Of a DNA stretch of 64,000 nucleotides, positions 16,391-52,102 are shown in pieces. The notes beneath the pieces are model-generated. The model was not told the DNA's origin and searched no databases. It saw only the letters and a list, made by a program, of their open reading frames with translations. Numbering within the stretch: position 1 is the stretch's first letter; each line of letters opens with the position of its first letter. Source of the stretch: Alistipes sp. (GTDB lineage Bacteria > Bacteroidota > Bacteroidia > Bacteroidales > Rikenellaceae); assembly GCA_017379015.1 (NCBI GenBank), contig JAFNXN010000007.1, forward strand, positions 1-64,000. Reading direction: 5' to 3'. Both the position numbers and the translations under genes were made by a program.

Positions 16391-16465
16391 TCGGGATACC
16401 AGGATTCGAACCTGGGACCCCCTGCTCCCAAAGCAGGTGCGCTAACCGGACTGCGCTACATCCCG
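16391..16465 (-). tRNA. tRNA-Pro (anticodon TGG)
   Basis: Minus-strand cloverleaf of 75 nt. The acceptor stem is CGGGATG / TATCCCG with discriminator A. The D arm contains AGTCCGGTTA, the anticodon stem is CCTGC / GCAGG around loop TTTGGGA (anticodon TGG), and the T arm is CCAGG-TTCGAAT-CCTGG. No CCA is encoded. It has its own promoter and terminator. Confidence 0.96.
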
Positions 16466-27444: not shown

Positions 27445-27446
27445 CT

Positions 27447-27454
27447 TATATTTG
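27447..27454 (+). promoter_or_regulatory. Probable -7 box of the B12 locus
   Basis: TATATTTG fits the -7 consensus and lies just before the riboswitch. No good TTTG is found 19-21 bases upstream, where the terminator stem sits, so the -33 contact is weak or absent. Confidence 0.45.
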
Positions 27455-27464
27455 CACCAGCATT

Positions 27465-27640
27465 GGTTCTTTGGCGTGCCACAAGCACTCCGGAAGATTA
27501 AAAGGGAATCGGGTGTAAATCCCGAACAGTTCCCGCTGCTGTGAGTCTCATAAAGCTCTACGACATCAAGTTGTCACTGGGGTAAATCCCTGGGAAGGCA
27601 TCGTAGAGCGAGACAAGTCAGAAGACCTGCCAAGCTAGTT
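27465..27640 (+). ncRNA. Cobalamin riboswitch
   Basis: The sequence contains the conserved cobalamin-aptamer elements in order: GGGTGTAAATCCCG, ACAGTTCCCGCTGCTGTGAG, CACTGG, CCTGGGAAGGC and the B12 box AGTCAGAAGACCTGCC. The closing helix is TTGGC (27471-27475) with GCCAA, and a long P6-like stem CTCTACGA / TCGTAGAG encloses the core. It precedes four genes for outer-membrane B12 capture and should lower their expression when adenosyl- or other cobalamin is plentiful. Confidence 0.95.
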
Positions 27641-27827
27641 ATTACGAGATTATGCCTGCGGCGAATGGGCCAATCCGACAACTTGATTTTATCAAGATCT
27701 ACATTGTATCCAAAGCTTCCCGCGAAGGGAGGGCTTGGTGGCATCGTATAGGTAGTGTCGAGTGCTTATTGTAGCATAATCTTGTAGTGTTAAAGATTAC
27801 GGAGAATGACCTTTTAACAACTAGATT
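27641..27827 (+). promoter_or_regulatory. Expression platform and leader after the cobalamin riboswitch
   Basis: GACAACTTGAT (27677-27687) is perfectly complementary (11 bp) to ATCAAGTTGTC (27565-27575) inside the aptamer. It can alternatively use CTTGAT (27682-27687) to form a local hairpin with ATCAAG (27691-27696). A stable hairpin, CCAAAGCTTCCC with GGGAGGGCTTGG (about 27710-27742), follows. No T-run terminator is visible, so control may act on translation or on a further structure. Confidence 0.5.
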
Positions 27828-46175: not shown

Positions 46176-46931
46176 CTATTTGCCTACACTCTTAGCACGC
46201 TTTGCCATTGCCGATGCGAAGACAAAGTCATTAAGTTCGGGATTATCGGACTGAAGAATATCATCCTTGGAGCCCTCCCACCATTTATGACCTTCGTGGA
46301 TATAGACAATTTTCTCGCCAATCTCCATCACCGAGTTCATATCATGGGTATTAATAATGGTCGTTATGTTAAACTCCTTGGTAATATCGTAGATAAGGTT
46401 GTCGATAACAACCGATGTCTGTGGATCGAGACCCGAGTTAGGCTCATCGCAGAAGAGATAGCGAGGGTTGAGCACTATGGCACGTGCTATAGCCACACGC
46501 TTGATCATACCACCACTAAGCTCCGAGGGGTATAGGTGGTCGGCACCCACCAAACGCACACGCTCGAGGCAGAAGTCCACACGCTCACGCTTCTCAGCAT
46601 CCGATAAATCGGTGAAGAGGTCCAGCGGCAGGCGTACATTCTCACGCACGGTTGATGAGTCGAGCAGTGCACCACCCTGGAAGATCATGCCAATATCCTT
46701 ACGTATCTTCTTACGCTCCTTGAAGCCAAGATCGGTGTAGCACACATCGTCGTAGTAGATCTTACCTAAATCCACATCGTGGAGTCCCACAAGGCTTTTG
46801 AGCAACACGGTCTTTCCCGAGCCACTGCGTCCGATGATAAGGTTTGTCTTGCCTGTCTCGAACTCTACGCTAATATCGTCGAGCACCTTACGTCCTTCAA
46901 ATGTCTTTGATATATGGTCTGCACGTATCAT
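46176..46931 (-). CDS. mlaF: Mla-type ABC transporter ATP-binding protein
   Basis: ATPase of 251 residues from the MlaF/Ttg2A group that powers phospholipid trafficking between inner and outer membrane. Walker A is IIGRSGSGKTVLLKS, the signature is LSGGMIKRVAIARA, and Walker B is YLFCDEPNSGLDP; the H-loop lies in 'TTIINTHDMNSV'. Its start overlaps the end of mlaE by 4 bp, so translation is coupled. The MCE-domain substrate-binding partner (mlaD) is not adjacent here and must be elsewhere. Confidence 0.93.
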   Translation of the reverse strand: MIRADHISKTFEGRKVLDDISVEFETGKTNLIIGRSGSGKTVLLKSLVGLHDVDLGKIYYDDVCYTDLGFKERKKIRKDIGMIFQGGALLDSSTVRENVRLPLDLFTDLSDAEKRERVDFCLERVRLVGADHLYPSELSGGMIKRVAIARAIVLNPRYLFCDEPNSGLDPQTSVVIDNLIYDITKEFNITTIINTHDMNSVMEIGEKIVYIHEGHKWWEGSKDDILQSDNPELNDFVFASAMAKRAKSVGK

Positions 46932-47671
46932 ACTCGCATAATCTGTGTTAGGATGAGGTCAAAAATCATGATTGTCACCGAGCTTGCCACAACGGCAAGA
47001 GTAGAGGCGCGTCCCACCTCCAGAGAGTTGCCCTTAGCATAGTAGCCACAATAGGCCGATATTGAGGTGATGATAAAGGCAAAGACAGCACCCTTAACTA
47101 GGGCATAGGTAAACGAGAATGGCTCGAAGTAGTAGAACAAACCCTCGATGTAGTCACCCGTGAGCACGATACCCGTGAGGTAGGCTATGGCATAACCACC
47201 CACAATACCCACAAAGATGCTAAAGAGTGTGAGTATTGGGAAGAAGATCACCGTAGCCACAATCTTTGGCAGGATGAGATACGACGCCGAGTTTACGCCC
47301 ATGATCTCTAGGGCGTCGATCTGCTCGGTAATACGCATAGTACCGATCTCCGAGGCGATGTTCGATCCCACCTTACCTGCAAGGATAAGGGCAACAACCG
47401 TAGAGGAGAACTCGAGCACCATAACCTCTCGCGTAGCGTAGCCGATCATAAACTTGGGAATGAATGGCGACTCGAGGGTGATAGCCATCTGAAGTGCCAC
47501 AACAGCACCAATAAATGCTGAGATGATGGCAGTGAGCGATATGGAGTTAAAGCCCAATGCCTCGATCTCAAACAAGACACGACGCGAATAGATACTCATC
47601 TTCTCGGGACGCGAAAAGACCTTGCCCAGAAGCATGAAGTATCGTCCTATGTTTTCAAATAGTTTAATCAT
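46928..47671 (-). CDS. mlaE: Mla-type ABC transporter permease
   Basis: A 247-residue MlaE/YrbE-family permease with five or six membrane helices. Conserved family segments are 'SLTAIISAFIGAVVALQMA', 'REVMVLEFSSTVVALILAGK' (20) and 'ASEIGTMRITEQIDALEIMG' (20); the last contains the EQIDAL coupling motif that contacts the ATPase. It lies between the DUF4834 gene (52 bp upstream) and mlaF. Confidence 0.93.
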   Translation of the reverse strand: MIKLFENIGRYFMLLGKVFSRPEKMSIYSRRVLFEIEALGFNSISLTAIISAFIGAVVALQMAITLESPFIPKFMIGYATREVMVLEFSSTVVALILAGKVGSNIASEIGTMRITEQIDALEIMGVNSASYLILPKIVATVIFFPILTLFSIFVGIVGGYAIAYLTGIVLTGDYIEGLFYYFEPFSFTYALVKGAVFAFIITSISAYCGYYAKGNSLEVGRASTLAVVASSVTIMIFDLILTQIMRV

Positions 47672-48167: not shown

Positions 48168-48332
48168 TTTTTCAAGTTAATATACATTAAAAGCCTATCT
48201 ACCTAATAACATAAGGTAAGACGCTATACGCGGCAAAGATAATAAATTAATGCCAAATCTAAAAAACTATTGCCCTAATAAAGGTTTTTATGAGCCATAT
48301 AGATTAGTTTACGCAGGGTCGTTTAGAAAAAA

Positions 48333-48364
48333 TTTGCATAATTAAAATAAAATATTTAAATTTG
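48333..48364 (+). promoter_or_regulatory. Promoter of the methionine operon
   Basis: TTTG (48333-48336), 20 bases, TAAATTTG (48357-48364), 21 bp before the leader-peptide ATG. It is one of the best promoter matches in the window. Confidence 0.8.
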
Positions 48365-48385
48365 CACTAACATCAAACTACGAGA

Positions 48386-48475
48386 ATGAATCGAATTAGC
48401 AACATAACTATCACTGACAAGGCATCACACGGTGTCAGAATGACTATGGTTATGTCTATGCGAATGTGCCGCTAG
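48386..48475 (+). CDS. Methionine-rich leader peptide upstream of metY-metX-hom
   Basis: A 29-codon open frame (ATG 48386, TAG 48473-48475) that ends MTMVMSMRMCR: five Met codons within ten, followed by Cys-Arg-stop. It starts about 21 bp after a strong promoter and is followed 130 bp later by genes for homocysteine and methionine synthesis, so the amino acid it is rich in is a product of the operon. This is the classic arrangement of ribosome-mediated attenuation. The frame has no other reason to be Met-rich. That it is translated and regulatory is inference. Confidence 0.75.
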   Translation: MNRISNITITDKASHGVRMTMVMSMRMCR

Positions 48476-48574
48476 GCACGCGACTTCATCATGCAGACAT
48501 AGGTATCTGCACCTCCCCACAGATTAAAACAAAAACAGCTCCTCACTCGTCACTAATAGTGCGAAGGAATGAGG
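48451..48574 (+). promoter_or_regulatory. Putative attenuator region of the methionine operon
   Basis: TATGTCT (48451-48457), lying over the Met codons, is complementary to AGACATA (48495-48501). The latter overlaps TGCAGA (48492-48497), which pairs with TCTGCA (48506-48511), so the two folds exclude each other. A third hairpin, GTGCC-GCTA-GGCAC, spans the leader stop codon, and CCTCA / TGAGG (48541-48574) encloses CACT/AGTG just before metY. No T-run is present, so control could be translational or Rho-dependent. Confidence 0.5.
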
Positions 48575-48605
48575 CATTATTACTAATACGCATTACTATA
48601 ACAAT

Positions 48606-49889
48606 ATGGACAACAAGGATTTAAAGTTCGAGACTAGACAAATACACGGAGGCTATCACGTCGACTCATCACAGGCAAGAGGCATCGCCATACACCCTAC
48701 GGCAGCATACCACTTCCCAACGTGCGAGTATGCCGCTAACCTCTTCACACTCAGCGAACCTGGATATATCTACACTCGTCTACACAACCCCACCACAGCG
48801 GCCTACGAAGAGCGTATAGCTGCACTCTATGGAGGTGTGGGTGCTCTGGCAACATCGTCGGGCATGTCGTCGATACTCCTTACGGTAACCGCGCTATGTA
48901 ATCATGGCGAGAACATCGTTGCCTCGCCATACCTCTACGGTGGAACACACAACCAGTTTGTCATATCGCTCAGAAACGTGGGTATCGAGTGTCGCTTGGC
49001 TAAGAGCGACTCGGCTGAGGACATGGCGGCTCTCGTAGATGAGAATACACGCGCTCTGTTTGTCGAGTCGATGGGCAACCCAACATGCCGAGTAGCCGAC
49101 ATCGAGGCACTTGCCAAGGTTGCACACAGCAACAACATACCTCTTATTGTCGATAACACGTTTGGTGCAGGAGGCTACCTCTGTAACCCATTCGAGTGGG
49201 GAGCAGACATCATCACCGACTCGGCGACCAAGTGGATTAATGGTCATGGCACAGCCATGGGAGGCATCATCGTAGATAGCGGCAACTTCGACTGGAGAGC
49301 ATCGGGCAAGTTCCCACAGATAGACGGACCATCTGAGGGCTACCACGGTCTTAACCTCTGCGATGCGTTTGGCTCACAGGCATTCATCGTCAAGTGCAGA
49401 GTGGATGGCATGCGCGACTTTGGTTGCTGCCCCTCGCCCTTCGATGCTTATCTAATGCTCATCGGACTAGAGACCCTATCGCTACGTGTCAAGCACGAGG
49501 TAGAGTCGGCATACAAGCTTGCTGAATATTGCCGCCAGCACCCTAAGGTTGAGCGAGTTAGCTTTGTGGGCTTCGAGGACCACCCAAGCCACGAGCTAGC
49601 CAAGAAATACTATCGCTTCGGTGCATCGGCGGTGCTCACCATCGAGCTTAAGGGCGACCTTGAGTCGACTGTACGCTTTGTCGAGAGCCTCAAGCTATCT
49701 GGCAACATGACGATGATTGGCGACTCAATATCGGTTGTTACTCACCCCGCCTCGACCACTCATAAGCAGCTCTCGGATGAGGCTAAGCGCGCTGCAGGCA
49801 TAACTCCAACGCTGCTACGCATATCACTAGGATTGGAGAATGTCGAGGACATCATCGCCGACTACGAGCAGGCACTTAACAACATCTAA
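48606..49889 (+). CDS. metY: O-acetylhomoserine sulfhydrylase (PLP-dependent)
   Basis: Forms homocysteine from O-acetylhomoserine and sulfide. The 427-residue Cys/Met-metabolism PLP enzyme is longer than metB/metC types, as usual for MetY. The PLP lysine lies in SATKWINGHGTAMGG, the phosphate-binding 'TSSGMSSILLTV' and the ring-stacking region 'SPYLYGGTHNQF' are present, and the early motif 'HPTAAYHFPT' is typical. It is the first structural gene of the operon; metX follows after 2 bp. Confidence 0.95.
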   Translation: MDNKDLKFETRQIHGGYHVDSSQARGIAIHPTAAYHFPTCEYAANLFTLSEPGYIYTRLHNPTTAAYEERIAALYGGVGALATSSGMSSILLTVTALCNHGENIVASPYLYGGTHNQFVISLRNVGIECRLAKSDSAEDMAALVDENTRALFVESMGNPTCRVADIEALAKVAHSNNIPLIVDNTFGAGGYLCNPFEWGADIITDSATKWINGHGTAMGGIIVDSGNFDWRASGKFPQIDGPSEGYHGLNLCDAFGSQAFIVKCRVDGMRDFGCCPSPFDAYLMLIGLETLSLRVKHEVESAYKLAEYCRQHPKVERVSFVGFEDHPSHELAKKYYRFGASAVLTIELKGDLESTVRFVESLKLSGNMTMIGDSISVVTHPASTTHKQLSDEAKRAAGITPTLLRISLGLENVEDIIADYEQALNNI

Positions 49890-49891
49890 CC

Positions 49892-50908
49892 ATGGCACAA
49901 GTATATCACCATAGAGCACCTATAACACTCGAATCGGGGGAGGTACTGCCAGAGTTGGAGATCGCCTACGACACCTTTGGCACTCTCAACGAGGCAAAGG
50001 ATAACGTCATCTGGGTATGTCACGCCCTCACGGCCAACTCTGATGTTGCCGACTGGTGGCCACATACTGTTGAGCGAGGCAAGTTTCTCGACCCAGAGCG
50101 ATACTTTATCGTATGTGCCAACTTTCTCGGCTCGCACTATGGCACCACGTCGCCACTGTCGGTAAACCCCGCCACAGGCAAGAAGTACTATTACGACTTT
50201 CCTCGCATCAGCGTGCGCGACATGGTGCAATGCCACAAACTGCTTGCCAAGACACTGGGCATCGAACGTGTTAAGCTACTCATAGGCAGCTCGATAGGCG
50301 GTTTTCAGTGCATGGAGTGGGCAATCAGCGAGCCTCGCTTCATGGAGCGTTTGGCACTTATCGCCACCACATGTTGCTCGGAGCCATGGGCAGCAGCCTT
50401 CAACGAGTCACAACGCATGGCGATACGCCTTGACCCTACATGGGGAGAGCTTCGTGACGATGCTGGCATAGATGGCATGGCAGTAGCACGCTCCATGGCC
50501 CTCATAAGCTACCGAGGAGGTGCTGCCTACAACGCCACACAGCAGGACGAAGAGCTCAACGAAGCGTCGTTCGAGCGTCGCGCACACAGCTACCAACGCT
50601 ACCAGGGCGAGAAGCTACGCCGCAGGTTTAACGCCATCTCCTACTACCGACTATCTGAGGCTGTCGACTCGCACAACATAGCACGCCATAGAGGGAGCAT
50701 AGCCGAGGCGTTACGATCAATCGAGGCACGCACACTCATAGTTGCCATCTCCTCGGATATACTCTTTCCACCCGAGGCACACGACCCTATGCGTGAGCAC
50801 ATTGCGAACAACGAGTATCACCTCATAGAGTCGTCGTTTGGCCACGACGGATTTCTTGTCGAGCACGAGAAGCTAAACAGAATAATTGAGAATTTTATGA
50901 ACAAATAA
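49892..50908 (+). CDS. metX: Homoserine O-acetyltransferase
   Basis: Alpha/beta-hydrolase-fold acyltransferase that activates homoserine with acetyl-CoA, supplying MetY. 338 residues. Family motifs: 'WVCHALTANSDVADWW', 'ANFLGSHYGTTSP' (GS.YG.TGP-like), the nucleophile serine in GSSIGGFQCMEWA, the acid in 'ISSDILFPP' and the histidine in 'SSFGHDGFLVE'. It is tightly packed between metY (2 bp) and hom (12 bp). Confidence 0.94.
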   Translation: MAQVYHHRAPITLESGEVLPELEIAYDTFGTLNEAKDNVIWVCHALTANSDVADWWPHTVERGKFLDPERYFIVCANFLGSHYGTTSPLSVNPATGKKYYYDFPRISVRDMVQCHKLLAKTLGIERVKLLIGSSIGGFQCMEWAISEPRFMERLALIATTCCSEPWAAAFNESQRMAIRLDPTWGELRDDAGIDGMAVARSMALISYRGGAAYNATQQDEELNEASFERRAHSYQRYQGEKLRRRFNAISYYRLSEAVDSHNIARHRGSIAEALRSIEARTLIVAISSDILFPPEAHDPMREHIANNEYHLIESSFGHDGFLVEHEKLNRIIENFMNK

Positions 50909-50920
50909 ATATACCAAACT

Positions 50921-52102
50921 ATGAAAAATCTAAATATCGGACTCTTCGGCTTTGGTAACGTGGGACGCGGTCTATACGACGTACTACAGCGCATCAACTC
51001 CGACAACGTACACATCAAGCGCATCTGCGTGCGCAACATCGACAAGGAGCGTGGCATCAAGGCGCAGTTTACGGATAACCCAGACGAGATATTCAACGAC
51101 AAGGATATAAACCTTATCGTCGAGGTTATCGACGATGCTGAGGCTGCCTACGACATCGTCAAGCGCGCGCTCAAGAGCCGTATTCCAGTTGTTTCGGGCA
51201 ACAAGAAGATGCTCGGTCACCACATTATTGAGCTTATCGACCTTCAGGAGCAGTACAACACTGCCCTACTCTACGACGCCTCAGCCTGTGGCTCGATACC
51301 CGTTATTCGCAACCTCGAGGAGTACTACGACAACGATCTGCTATGCTCCGTGAAGGGTATCCTCAACGGCTCGTCGAACTTCATCCTCTCGAAGATCTTC
51401 AACGAGAAGATGGGCTACAAGGAGGCTCTTAAGCTGGCTCAGGATCTAGGCTTTGCCGAGAGCAACCCTACGCTCGACATCGACGGCTGGGACTCGCTCT
51501 ACAAGCTAATCATCATCACTATGCACGCCTTTGGTGTCTACGTCGCTCCAGAGGAGATATTCACATACGGCATCTCAACGATGAATGACTCGGACATTCG
51601 CTTTGCCGAGGAGAAGGATCGCCGCATAAAGCTTGTGGCTCACGTCGAGAAGATCGACGACCGCCTTATCATGTGCGTAATACCGCAGCTCATCTCGCGC
51701 AACAAGTATATCTATAGCGTCGAGGACGAGTTCAACGGCGTGGTTATCAAGGGTCTGTTCTACGACAAGCAGTTTATGTTTGGTCGTGGTGCTGGTGGTC
51801 ATCCTACAGGCTCGGCTGTGCTCAGCGACATTACGGCATGTGCCTACAACTACCGCTACGAGTATAAGAAGCGTAACGACTCGGTGCTTCCACGCTACAC
51901 CATGGAGCACACCTTCCGCGTCTACTTCCGCTATAAGAGTGCCGAGCAGCGCAACTTGCTCAACTTCCTCAAGATCCGCGAGCAGTACACCTCGGACGAG
52001 TATAACTACATCGTAGGCGACGTTACGATAGCTAACCTCAAGGCTCATCAGGAGGAGCTACGCACGGCAGATTGCTTCGTAGCGGCATATCCGTTTGACT
52101 AG
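50921..52102 (+). CDS. hom: Homoserine dehydrogenase
   Basis: Reduces aspartate semialdehyde to homoserine. 393 residues, single-function (not fused to aspartokinase) and without a recognisable C-terminal ACT domain. The NAD(P) loop is GLFGFGNVGRGLYDVL; 'EVIDDAEAAYDIVKRAL' and 'VSGNKKMLGHH' follow; the catalytic region is 'GILNGSSNFILSKIF' and 'GFAESNPTLDIDGWDSLYKL' (20), with the conserved D.DG.D acidic cluster. Placement behind metY-metX dedicates this copy to methionine synthesis, which is inference. Confidence 0.94.
   Translation: MKNLNIGLFGFGNVGRGLYDVLQRINSDNVHIKRICVRNIDKERGIKAQFTDNPDEIFNDKDINLIVEVIDDAEAAYDIVKRALKSRIPVVSGNKKMLGHHIIELIDLQEQYNTALLYDASACGSIPVIRNLEEYYDNDLLCSVKGILNGSSNFILSKIFNEKMGYKEALKLAQDLGFAESNPTLDIDGWDSLYKLIIITMHAFGVYVAPEEIFTYGISTMNDSDIRFAEEKDRRIKLVAHVEKIDDRLIMCVIPQLISRNKYIYSVEDEFNGVVIKGLFYDKQFMFGRGAGGHPTGSAVLSDITACAYNYRYEYKKRNDSVLPRYTMEHTFRVYFRYKSAEQRNLLNFLKIREQYTSDEYNYIVGDVTIANLKAHQEELRTADCFVAAYPFD

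Follow-up and report, generated by a model that had tools for sequence, protein, structure and literature searches.

The region upstream of the metY-metX-hom operon in the Alistipes DNA analysed here (a stretch of 64,000 nucleotides, referred to as the window) is probably a methionine-responsive leader-peptide attenuator. From the compared sequences, leader-peptide control before metY is well supported, because the Met codons of the leader are specific to one reading frame, because a near-invariant core is tied to metY and because a sister form, the type II leader, has the layout of a complete attenuator. The window carries the other form, type I. Judged from its codons, the control would be methionine-specific. 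Control of methionine genes is usually ascribed to SAM riboswitches, T-boxes or repressors, and ribosome-mediated attenuators are known for the trp, his, leu, thr and ilv leaders. The elements of the window are the following:

48333 to 48364, plus strand: promoter of the Bacteroidetes type, with TTTG at 48333-48336 and, after 20 nt, TAAATTTG at 48357-48364
48386 to 48475, plus strand: leader peptide frame of 29 codons, MNRISNITITDKASHGVRMTMVMSMRMCR and a stop; the frame is kept in relatives and its Met codons are frame-specific
48458 to 48479, plus strand: near-invariant 22-nt core ATGCGAATGTGCCGCTAGGCAC (codons for M R M C R, the stop and GCAC)
48466 to 48479, plus strand: hairpin 1, GUGCC-GCUA-GGCAC, lying across the leader stop codon and paired in 74 of 74 aligned sequences
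48480 to 48491, plus strand: spacer, pyrimidine-rich in relatives (T 0.49, C 0.23 and G 0.08 in the 13 nt past hairpin 1, 77 leaders)
48492 to 48511, plus strand: hairpin 2, TGCAGA/TCTGCA in the window; in relatives a variable, covarying stem with an often UACG-like loop
48512 to 48540, plus strand: C-rich, G-poor stretch, by base composition a candidate Rho loading site
48541 to 48574, plus strand: hairpin 4 (CCTCA...TGAGG) from folds, with no T run after it
48606 to 49889, plus strand: metY, O-acetylhomoserine aminocarboxypropyltransferase (TIGR01326, 551.1 bits, cut-off 495.1)
49892 to 50908, plus strand: metX, homoserine O-acetyltransferase-like (best NCBIfam model TIGR01392, 339.6 bits, below the cut-off of 500)
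50921 to 52102, plus strand: hom, homoserine dehydrogenase (NF004976, 303.3 bits, cut-off 205)

An earlier note, made from the letters of the window, had described a textbook promoter and a 29-codon frame stopping 130 bp upstream of metY. All of these are present, the distance from the frame end to the metY ATG (48606) being 130 nt, and the promoter position is kept in relatives. The promoter follows the consensus TTTG, 20 nt, TAnnTTTG, which we take to be the Bacteroidetes pattern. TAnnTTTG lies at most 60 nt upstream of the leader ATG in 66 of 79 distinct leaders, versus 3.6 in shuffled and 4 in reversed sequences, and the commonest spacing to the ATG in type I is 20 nt. Thus, one feature of classical attenuators, a short frame with codons for the product immediately after the operon promoter, is found in the window. 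Other features of the window include genes for an ABC ATPase and an MlaE-like permease on the minus strand upstream of the metY operon (46176-47671, both below curated cut-offs), a Cobalamin riboswitch on the plus strand (27446-27648, RF00174, 109.3 bits) and a tRNA gene on the minus strand (16391-16465, RF00005).

The 79 distinct type I leaders were gathered via the string ATGCGAATGTGCC, those from the scan of species genomes also via TAG and GGCAC; the metY-upstream set and the species-genome set overlap, some genomes being present in both. Between the start and the MRMCR end, Met accounts for 204 of 1639 codons, compared with 28 in shuffles (maximum 43 in 500), whereas the same count gives 11 in frame +1 and none in frame +2. 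Slightly different borders in a second count gave 206 of 1643. Leader starts were limited to at most 45 codons before the stop, so that some longer frames (up to 88 codons) are cut in this count. The Met codons are concentrated in the last 14 codons of the leaders. Outside the core, type I leaders show no enrichment in Cys (45 versus 51 shuffled). The in-frame Met codons and the conserved frame end are thus far beyond chance, and the Met-rich frame of the earlier note proved to be a kept and frame-specific property of the relatives. By contrast with this signal, the amino-acid constraint on the variable part of the leader is weak: N/S is 2.3 versus a neutral 3.4 (30 overlapping pairs), a mild lean towards synonymous change. 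The N-terminal parts are diverse, being Met-rich in the genus of the window and short and Met-poorer in several other genera (MYIFASHIMRMCR and a stop), and Met beyond the core is scarce in leaders such as MMRMCR-stop and MRMCQ-stop. The frame-specific Met bias is an indirect sign that the leader frame is translated.

The Met-rich end noted earlier, MTMVMSMRMCR, is real, but the same note overlooked that its last codons belong to an invariant core laid over the stop codon. The invariance of this core (MRMCR in 75 of 79 leaders, TAG in 77 of 79, hairpin 1 paired in 74 of 74) is partly a matter of construction, because the same letters were used for collection. A control was provided by metY upstream regions chosen regardless of the core. 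Of 200 genomes searched for metY in the window's family (Rikenellaceae, judging by named relatives), 169 gave a match. The control set of 110 regions consists of 30 loci, the window included, and 80 taken further down the match list; it leaves out three genomes with contig ends (G164, G146, G018) and the weaker rest of the 169 matches. In this set, 45 regions contain CGAATGTG, in the setting ATGCGAATGTGCCGNTAGGCAC or a near variant. All 45 frames are open from the ATG through M R M C, 43 of them stop at TAG, and hairpin-1 pairing is found in 45 of 45 by eye. All 45 use the Arg codon CGA, which is rare (60 of 972 Arg codons, 6%, in the 37 frames of the window that have 200 codons or more), and none of the 110 regions has an MRMC frame using other codons. 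The fixation of TAG is barely informative, since it is also the commonest stop of these window frames (20/37). Hairpin 1, the loop of which contains the UA of the leader stop codon, has no covariation support because it is nearly invariant in the 74 aligned sequences.

Methionine starvation alone does not explain the fixed CGA and TGC codons. They ask for more than tRNA charging, namely, a slowly translated codon, the hairpin or some recognition of the nascent chain. The last of these leads to an alternative in which nascent MRMCR at the stop codon senses methionine or SAM directly and the variable Met codons are secondary. The model for such a switch is TnaC, which responds to tryptophan; in the Met leader, ligand-induced arrest would be hypothetical. 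Besides the constancy of the peptide end and of CGA, the alternative would account for the retention of MMRMCR alone in Prevotella, for two relatives that keep MRMC without the GGCAC arm (L263, L265) and for one in which RMC is encoded by other codons (L244). However, that single match may be chance, and the invariance at the level of codons, not only of residues, suggests more than peptide recognition. In addition, the last residue is altered in L024, L113 and L179 (MRMCL and a stop in the first two), the stop is lost in L110 (MRMCLAARF and a stop), TAG carries little weight for the reason given above, and the strong extra enrichment in Met is left unexplained. We therefore assign a low probability to direct sensing by the nascent peptide.

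It is very unlikely that the core and hairpins act as RNA only, as a riboswitch or a protein-binding RNA with an incidental frame. Such an element would fit the 22-nt near-invariant core, the covarying hairpin 2 and the fixed wobble positions of CGA and TGC, but not the frame-specific Met codons outside the core, the start codon positioned after the promoter or the Met bias of type II leaders, which lack the core. Consistently, no Rfam family, SAM families included, reached the gathering score in the window leader, and in six loci, the window's among them, searches up to E = 1 gave no SAM family and no convincing match. An Rfam miRNA match in one locus (L048, E 0.1) was discarded as being at chance level. 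Least probable of all, and hardly tenable, is a DNA operator in which the palindrome GTGCC-N4-GGCAC is bound by a methionine repressor. The palindrome is kept in the aligned type I leaders, in part through the collection method, but it sits where the leader frame ends, about 100 bp past the promoter, has only one other exact copy in its own incomplete genome, and is missing from L263 and L265, in which MRMC persists. The possibility that hairpin 1 is a dispersed repeat was rejected: its own assembly (78% complete) contains it exactly at two sites and with one mismatch in 16 rows; some of these form a local tandem. The palindrome GTGCCGTTAGGCAC was also encountered in another family (L211, from position 1500), its 14 letters being identical to hairpin 1 in many leaders; it adjoins a transposase-like frame and was judged to be separate from the leader system.

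Unlike hairpin 1, hairpin 2 covaries. Over 74 sequences, 76.8% of its cells are paired, with 110 double-change cells versus 41 in shuffles (0 of 500 as high) and 30-50 in slid controls. The earlier note had proposed that TATGTCT over the Met codons pairs with AGACATA, in exclusion of the TGCAGA/TCTGCA hairpin. Both heptamers (48451-48457 and 48495-48501) and the hairpin (48492-48511) are present in the window as described, but the alignment of relatives, which retains the frame and the Met codons, does not retain the complementary segments: AGACATA occurs in 1 of 79 leaders, that of the window. The mutually exclusive pairing was therefore rejected as a conserved feature, being absent from the other 78 leaders. 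More generally, duplexes between the Met segment and hairpin 2 are hardly stronger with their own partner than with a swapped one (-12.8 versus -12.3 kcal/mol; the own partner gave the stronger duplex in 40 of 73), and the window's own duplex is an outlier (-19.3 versus -11.8 kcal/mol swapped). Nor was a conserved downstream partner found for the core or hairpin 1 of type I (duplexes only slightly stronger, at -9.2 versus -8.0 and -11.3 versus -9.9 kcal/mol against mononucleotide shuffles). Folded as a whole, the leader is only mildly more stable than its shuffles (z -1.64; 14 of 200 shuffles did as well).

The absence of a visible T-run terminator, on which the earlier note had based an unusual final step, was borne out for the window's type. 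A scan of 48200-48700 found no intrinsic terminator, and type I leaders have terminator-like sites in only 15 of 77 cases, weak, scattered and formed by differing hairpins (1.3 and 2.4 in two kinds of shuffles), against 15 of 15 in type II. The bases following the hairpin before metY are not T-rich (0.16-0.23 at positions 1-3, 44 leaders), and an intrinsic terminator was rejected for type I. A T-rich stretch starting GAGTTTTTAAGA is common to L105, L108 and L110, two of which are Tidjanibacter leaders, and lies between the hairpins and metY. Instead, Rho probably terminates type I leaders on the C-rich, G-poor stretch after hairpin 2, as suggested by base composition: windows of 16 nt that begin 54-78 nt past the start of the core contain 0.22-0.33 C and 0.08-0.15 G in 77 leaders, compared with 0.15 C and 0.17 G in 19 other upstream regions of the window. 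This step is not established, because the core has no conserved partner and the 15 terminator-like sites are weak and scattered.

The lack of a conserved intrinsic terminator in type I could also be taken to mean that the leader controls translation of metY and not its transcription, the leader ribosome altering the folding near hairpin 4 and the metY start. The strongest hairpin before metY is indeed more stable than in shuffles (mean -9.6 versus -6.2 kcal/mol). However, by a near-perfect-stem criterion, which did not recover the hairpin 4 stem in the window, this hairpin is missing in 33 of 77 leaders, and of the 44 leaders that have it, 43 show 13-51 nt between its end and the metY ATG. Moreover, the sister type II is laid out as a transcriptional attenuator. 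We regard translational control as unlikely.

By its sequence, the type II leader is a complete classical methionine attenuator, with terminator and antiterminator. Frames of this type (for example, MNTARRYDRVSEMLHQNMMMVMCMCNRFRRV and a stop) were recognised in 15 cases by a Met-density scan and in L097, which is cut by a contig end. A pattern search yielded 15 distinct type II leaders at metY, 12 from the 110 regions and three from the family search. In 15 of 15, the last codons, GCCGGRTGTAR, can pair with ATCCGGC, which is the 5' arm of a hairpin followed by T6-T8. The terminators have energies of -10 to -13 and the competing duplexes of -13 to -15 kcal/mol, with the loop cost not counted. 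Met makes up 92 of 439 codons versus 6.8 in shuffles, and Cys 29 of 439 versus 13, none of 300 shuffles being as high. Three further leaders (L078, L083, L089) end in GCCGGGTATAG, outside the pattern, and have the same terminator; L242, from another family, has the type II layout with MSMMMVTCMRNRRSRV, a stop and T6. Within the family, the pattern occurs at 21 places in 19 of 200 genomes. Five of these places are not at metY, and three of the five (not L235 and L240) hold a frame without Met richness or a T run. In four loci (L226, L230, L237, L131) the type II leader precedes a metY only about 47% identical to that of the window, and type II is therefore found at two divergent metY lineages.

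Across the 110 upstream regions of the family, 45 carry a type I leader, 16 a type II leader and 49 neither. The sign against the idea that the earlier note had named, relatives without the frame, is thus partly present. Of the 49 leaderless copies, 22 follow a co-directional frame of 150 codons or more whose end is at most 100 nt from metY, an arrangement found in 0 of 45 type I and 0 of 16 type II regions, whereas 27 have no such long frame. With a limit of 60 codons, the test fails to separate the groups (15 of 45 type I, 13 of 16 type II, 30 of 49 with neither). On a quick MetY tree, type I leaders are found in both deep halves, requiring about eight changes, four of them forced by well-supported branches.

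In contigs of species genomes (84,980 species by the database description), the pattern ATGCGAATGTGCCNNTAGGCAC matched 76 stretches, mainly from Alistipes, Tidjanibacter and other Rikenellaceae, but also from Prevotella brunnea, P. ihumii and P. corporis, and from single records titled Muribaculaceae, Bacteroidales and Bacteroidetes. Named records sharing the core come mostly from Rikenellaceae, in particular from metagenome assemblies of Alistipes, and their metY is up to 93% identical to that of the window. metY follows on the same strand in 73 of the 76; in the other three the contig ends 38, 199 and 548 nt after the core, the third being P. corporis. In this P. corporis record (L180), the core and MMRMCR-stop are kept and the 548 nt behind them contain no metY where sister species have it. 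For 77 of 79 distinct leaders a metY start was assigned, at a distance of 117-283 nt from the core ATG. The order metY, metX, hom was found in all 31 loci with more than 4.2 kb of room and in 18 shorter ones, and no other order was seen. The leader is reduced to MMRMCR-stop in Prevotella and to MRMCQ-stop in RGIG9295. The metY of the record titled Muribaculaceae (L178) groups with Alistipes on the quick tree, pointing to transfer or a misnamed assembly. Among 393 genomes of the order, the core pattern with two mismatches matched four genomes, the three besides the window being unrelated by their surroundings. A model (R1) run on 65 core-less metY upstream regions gave no match up to E = 5. A covariance-model search of the 393 genomes returned the window only; since just 11 of several hundred candidates were scored in each genome, it is not usable as evidence of absence. 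In a blast comparison of the leader DNA with 60 relatives, matches outside the core and metY were mostly A+T-rich noise.

For the wider Bacteroidales, 247 genomes of the order were searched and loci were analysed for 29 metY genes, the best matches other than that of the window and all from other families. A SAM-I riboswitch (RF00162), which is absent from the window leader, lies upstream of the same gene in 13 of the 29. A short frame with at least three Met or Cys among its last 10 residues occurs in seven of the 29 upstream regions versus 0.35 in shuffles; by this measure the other 22 have none, L242 excepted. Four of these frames stand behind a SAM-I riboswitch (L251, L257, L263, L264) and three do not (L244, L265 with MLLSKQIFFSTLFAAMRMCCCC and a stop, L269 with MVMDMMCRMMMTI and a stop); one of the seven ends in MRMCCCC and a stop. 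SAM-I riboswitches also directly precede type I leaders in the family, in L138 (the same as L113) and L140 (the same as L122). Positions for three of the tandem arrangements at metY are:

L138, 1435 to 1533, minus strand: SAM-I riboswitch before the Met leader
L140, 1636 to 1731, plus strand: SAM-I riboswitch before the Met leader
L263, 966 to 1070, plus strand: SAM-I riboswitch before the Met leader

By their predicted functions, these are two sulfur sensors in tandem. The earlier note missed the relatives in which the riboswitch precedes the leader. A bolder and, in our view, improbable reading of these arrangements is that MRMCR-stop, down to the six-codon MMRMCR-stop of Prevotella, is a minimal sensor made of nascent peptide and mRNA hairpin that reads methionine or SAM at the UAG, and that in some Bacteroidales SAM-I gates translation of the leader, producing a two-input switch on one gene.

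In the preferred reading, attenuation by a methionine-sensing leader ribosome, the transcript would begin just 5' of the short Met-rich frame and a ribosome would trail RNA polymerase into the leader, its progress across the Met codons reporting the charging of Met-tRNA. With ample charged Met-tRNA, the ribosome would reach the UAG and be released, and the leader RNA would adopt a state that stops most transcription short of metY. When charged Met-tRNA is scarce, the ribosome would pause on the clustered Met codons, mostly within the last 14, so that hairpins 1 and 2 are masked or formed in another order and transcription continues into metY. In type II, the last step would be a choice between the GCCGGGU/AUCCGGC pairing of the leader end and the T6-T8 terminator that uses AUCCGGC as its 5' arm. 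In type I, the position of the ribosome may set whether hairpin 1 and the following RNA are covered, with Rho acting on the C-rich stretch once the ribosome has gone. The idea of methionine attenuation by a leader peptide is thus upheld by the frame-specific Met codons of relatives and by the terminator and antiterminator of type II, but not by the AGACATA pairing with which it was first proposed.

Like the trp, his, leu, thr and ilv attenuators, both types have a short frame with product codons just after the promoter, and type II also has the terminator, with which a pairing of the leader end competes. Unlike them, the Met leaders would, judging from their codons, respond to methionine (in type II also to Cys), and the window's type has a near-invariant core over the stop codon. 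It has neither a conserved intrinsic terminator between leader and first gene, which all 15 type II leaders possess, nor a conserved, mutually exclusive antiterminator involving the leader end, which type II has as well. The window's version is therefore a variant of the classical attenuator class. The Bacteroid-trp motif, a proposed leader-peptide element in Bacteroidetes, concerns tryptophan and has another sequence; it is set apart from the Met leader by description only. Leader frames with Cys codons before cys operons of Actinobacteria resemble the window leader in being sulfur amino-acid frames with no visible terminator and with Rho proposed, but they contain runs of Cys and come from another phylum; according to PMC1262725, they have no conserved terminator-like hairpins, and Met operons of Actinobacteria have no conserved RNA structures upstream. 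A short frame, events at the stop codon and Rho, conjectural for type I, are shared with the tna operon leader TnaC (compare PMC8429421). The sign of control should be opposite to that of TnaC, because the metY operon is biosynthetic. Long 5' UTRs of B. thetaiotaomicron are noted to contain short frames that recall leader peptides (PMC7366714), and leader peptides are described for Proteobacteria, Actinobacteria and, newly, Firmicutes (PMC2965389); the word methionine is absent from PMC4833913. No methionine leader-peptide attenuator was found among the matches listed for the open-access literature.

If the preferred reading is true, a gut lineage would govern the synthesis of sulfur amino acids through the position of a ribosome. 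Sister species would hold complete-terminator and core-only versions of the same control, and some relatives a version in which a SAM riboswitch is joined to the leader. Since the terminator, core-only and SAM-plus-leader versions coexist in relatives, the evolution from one sensor to another would be readable and testable in this group.
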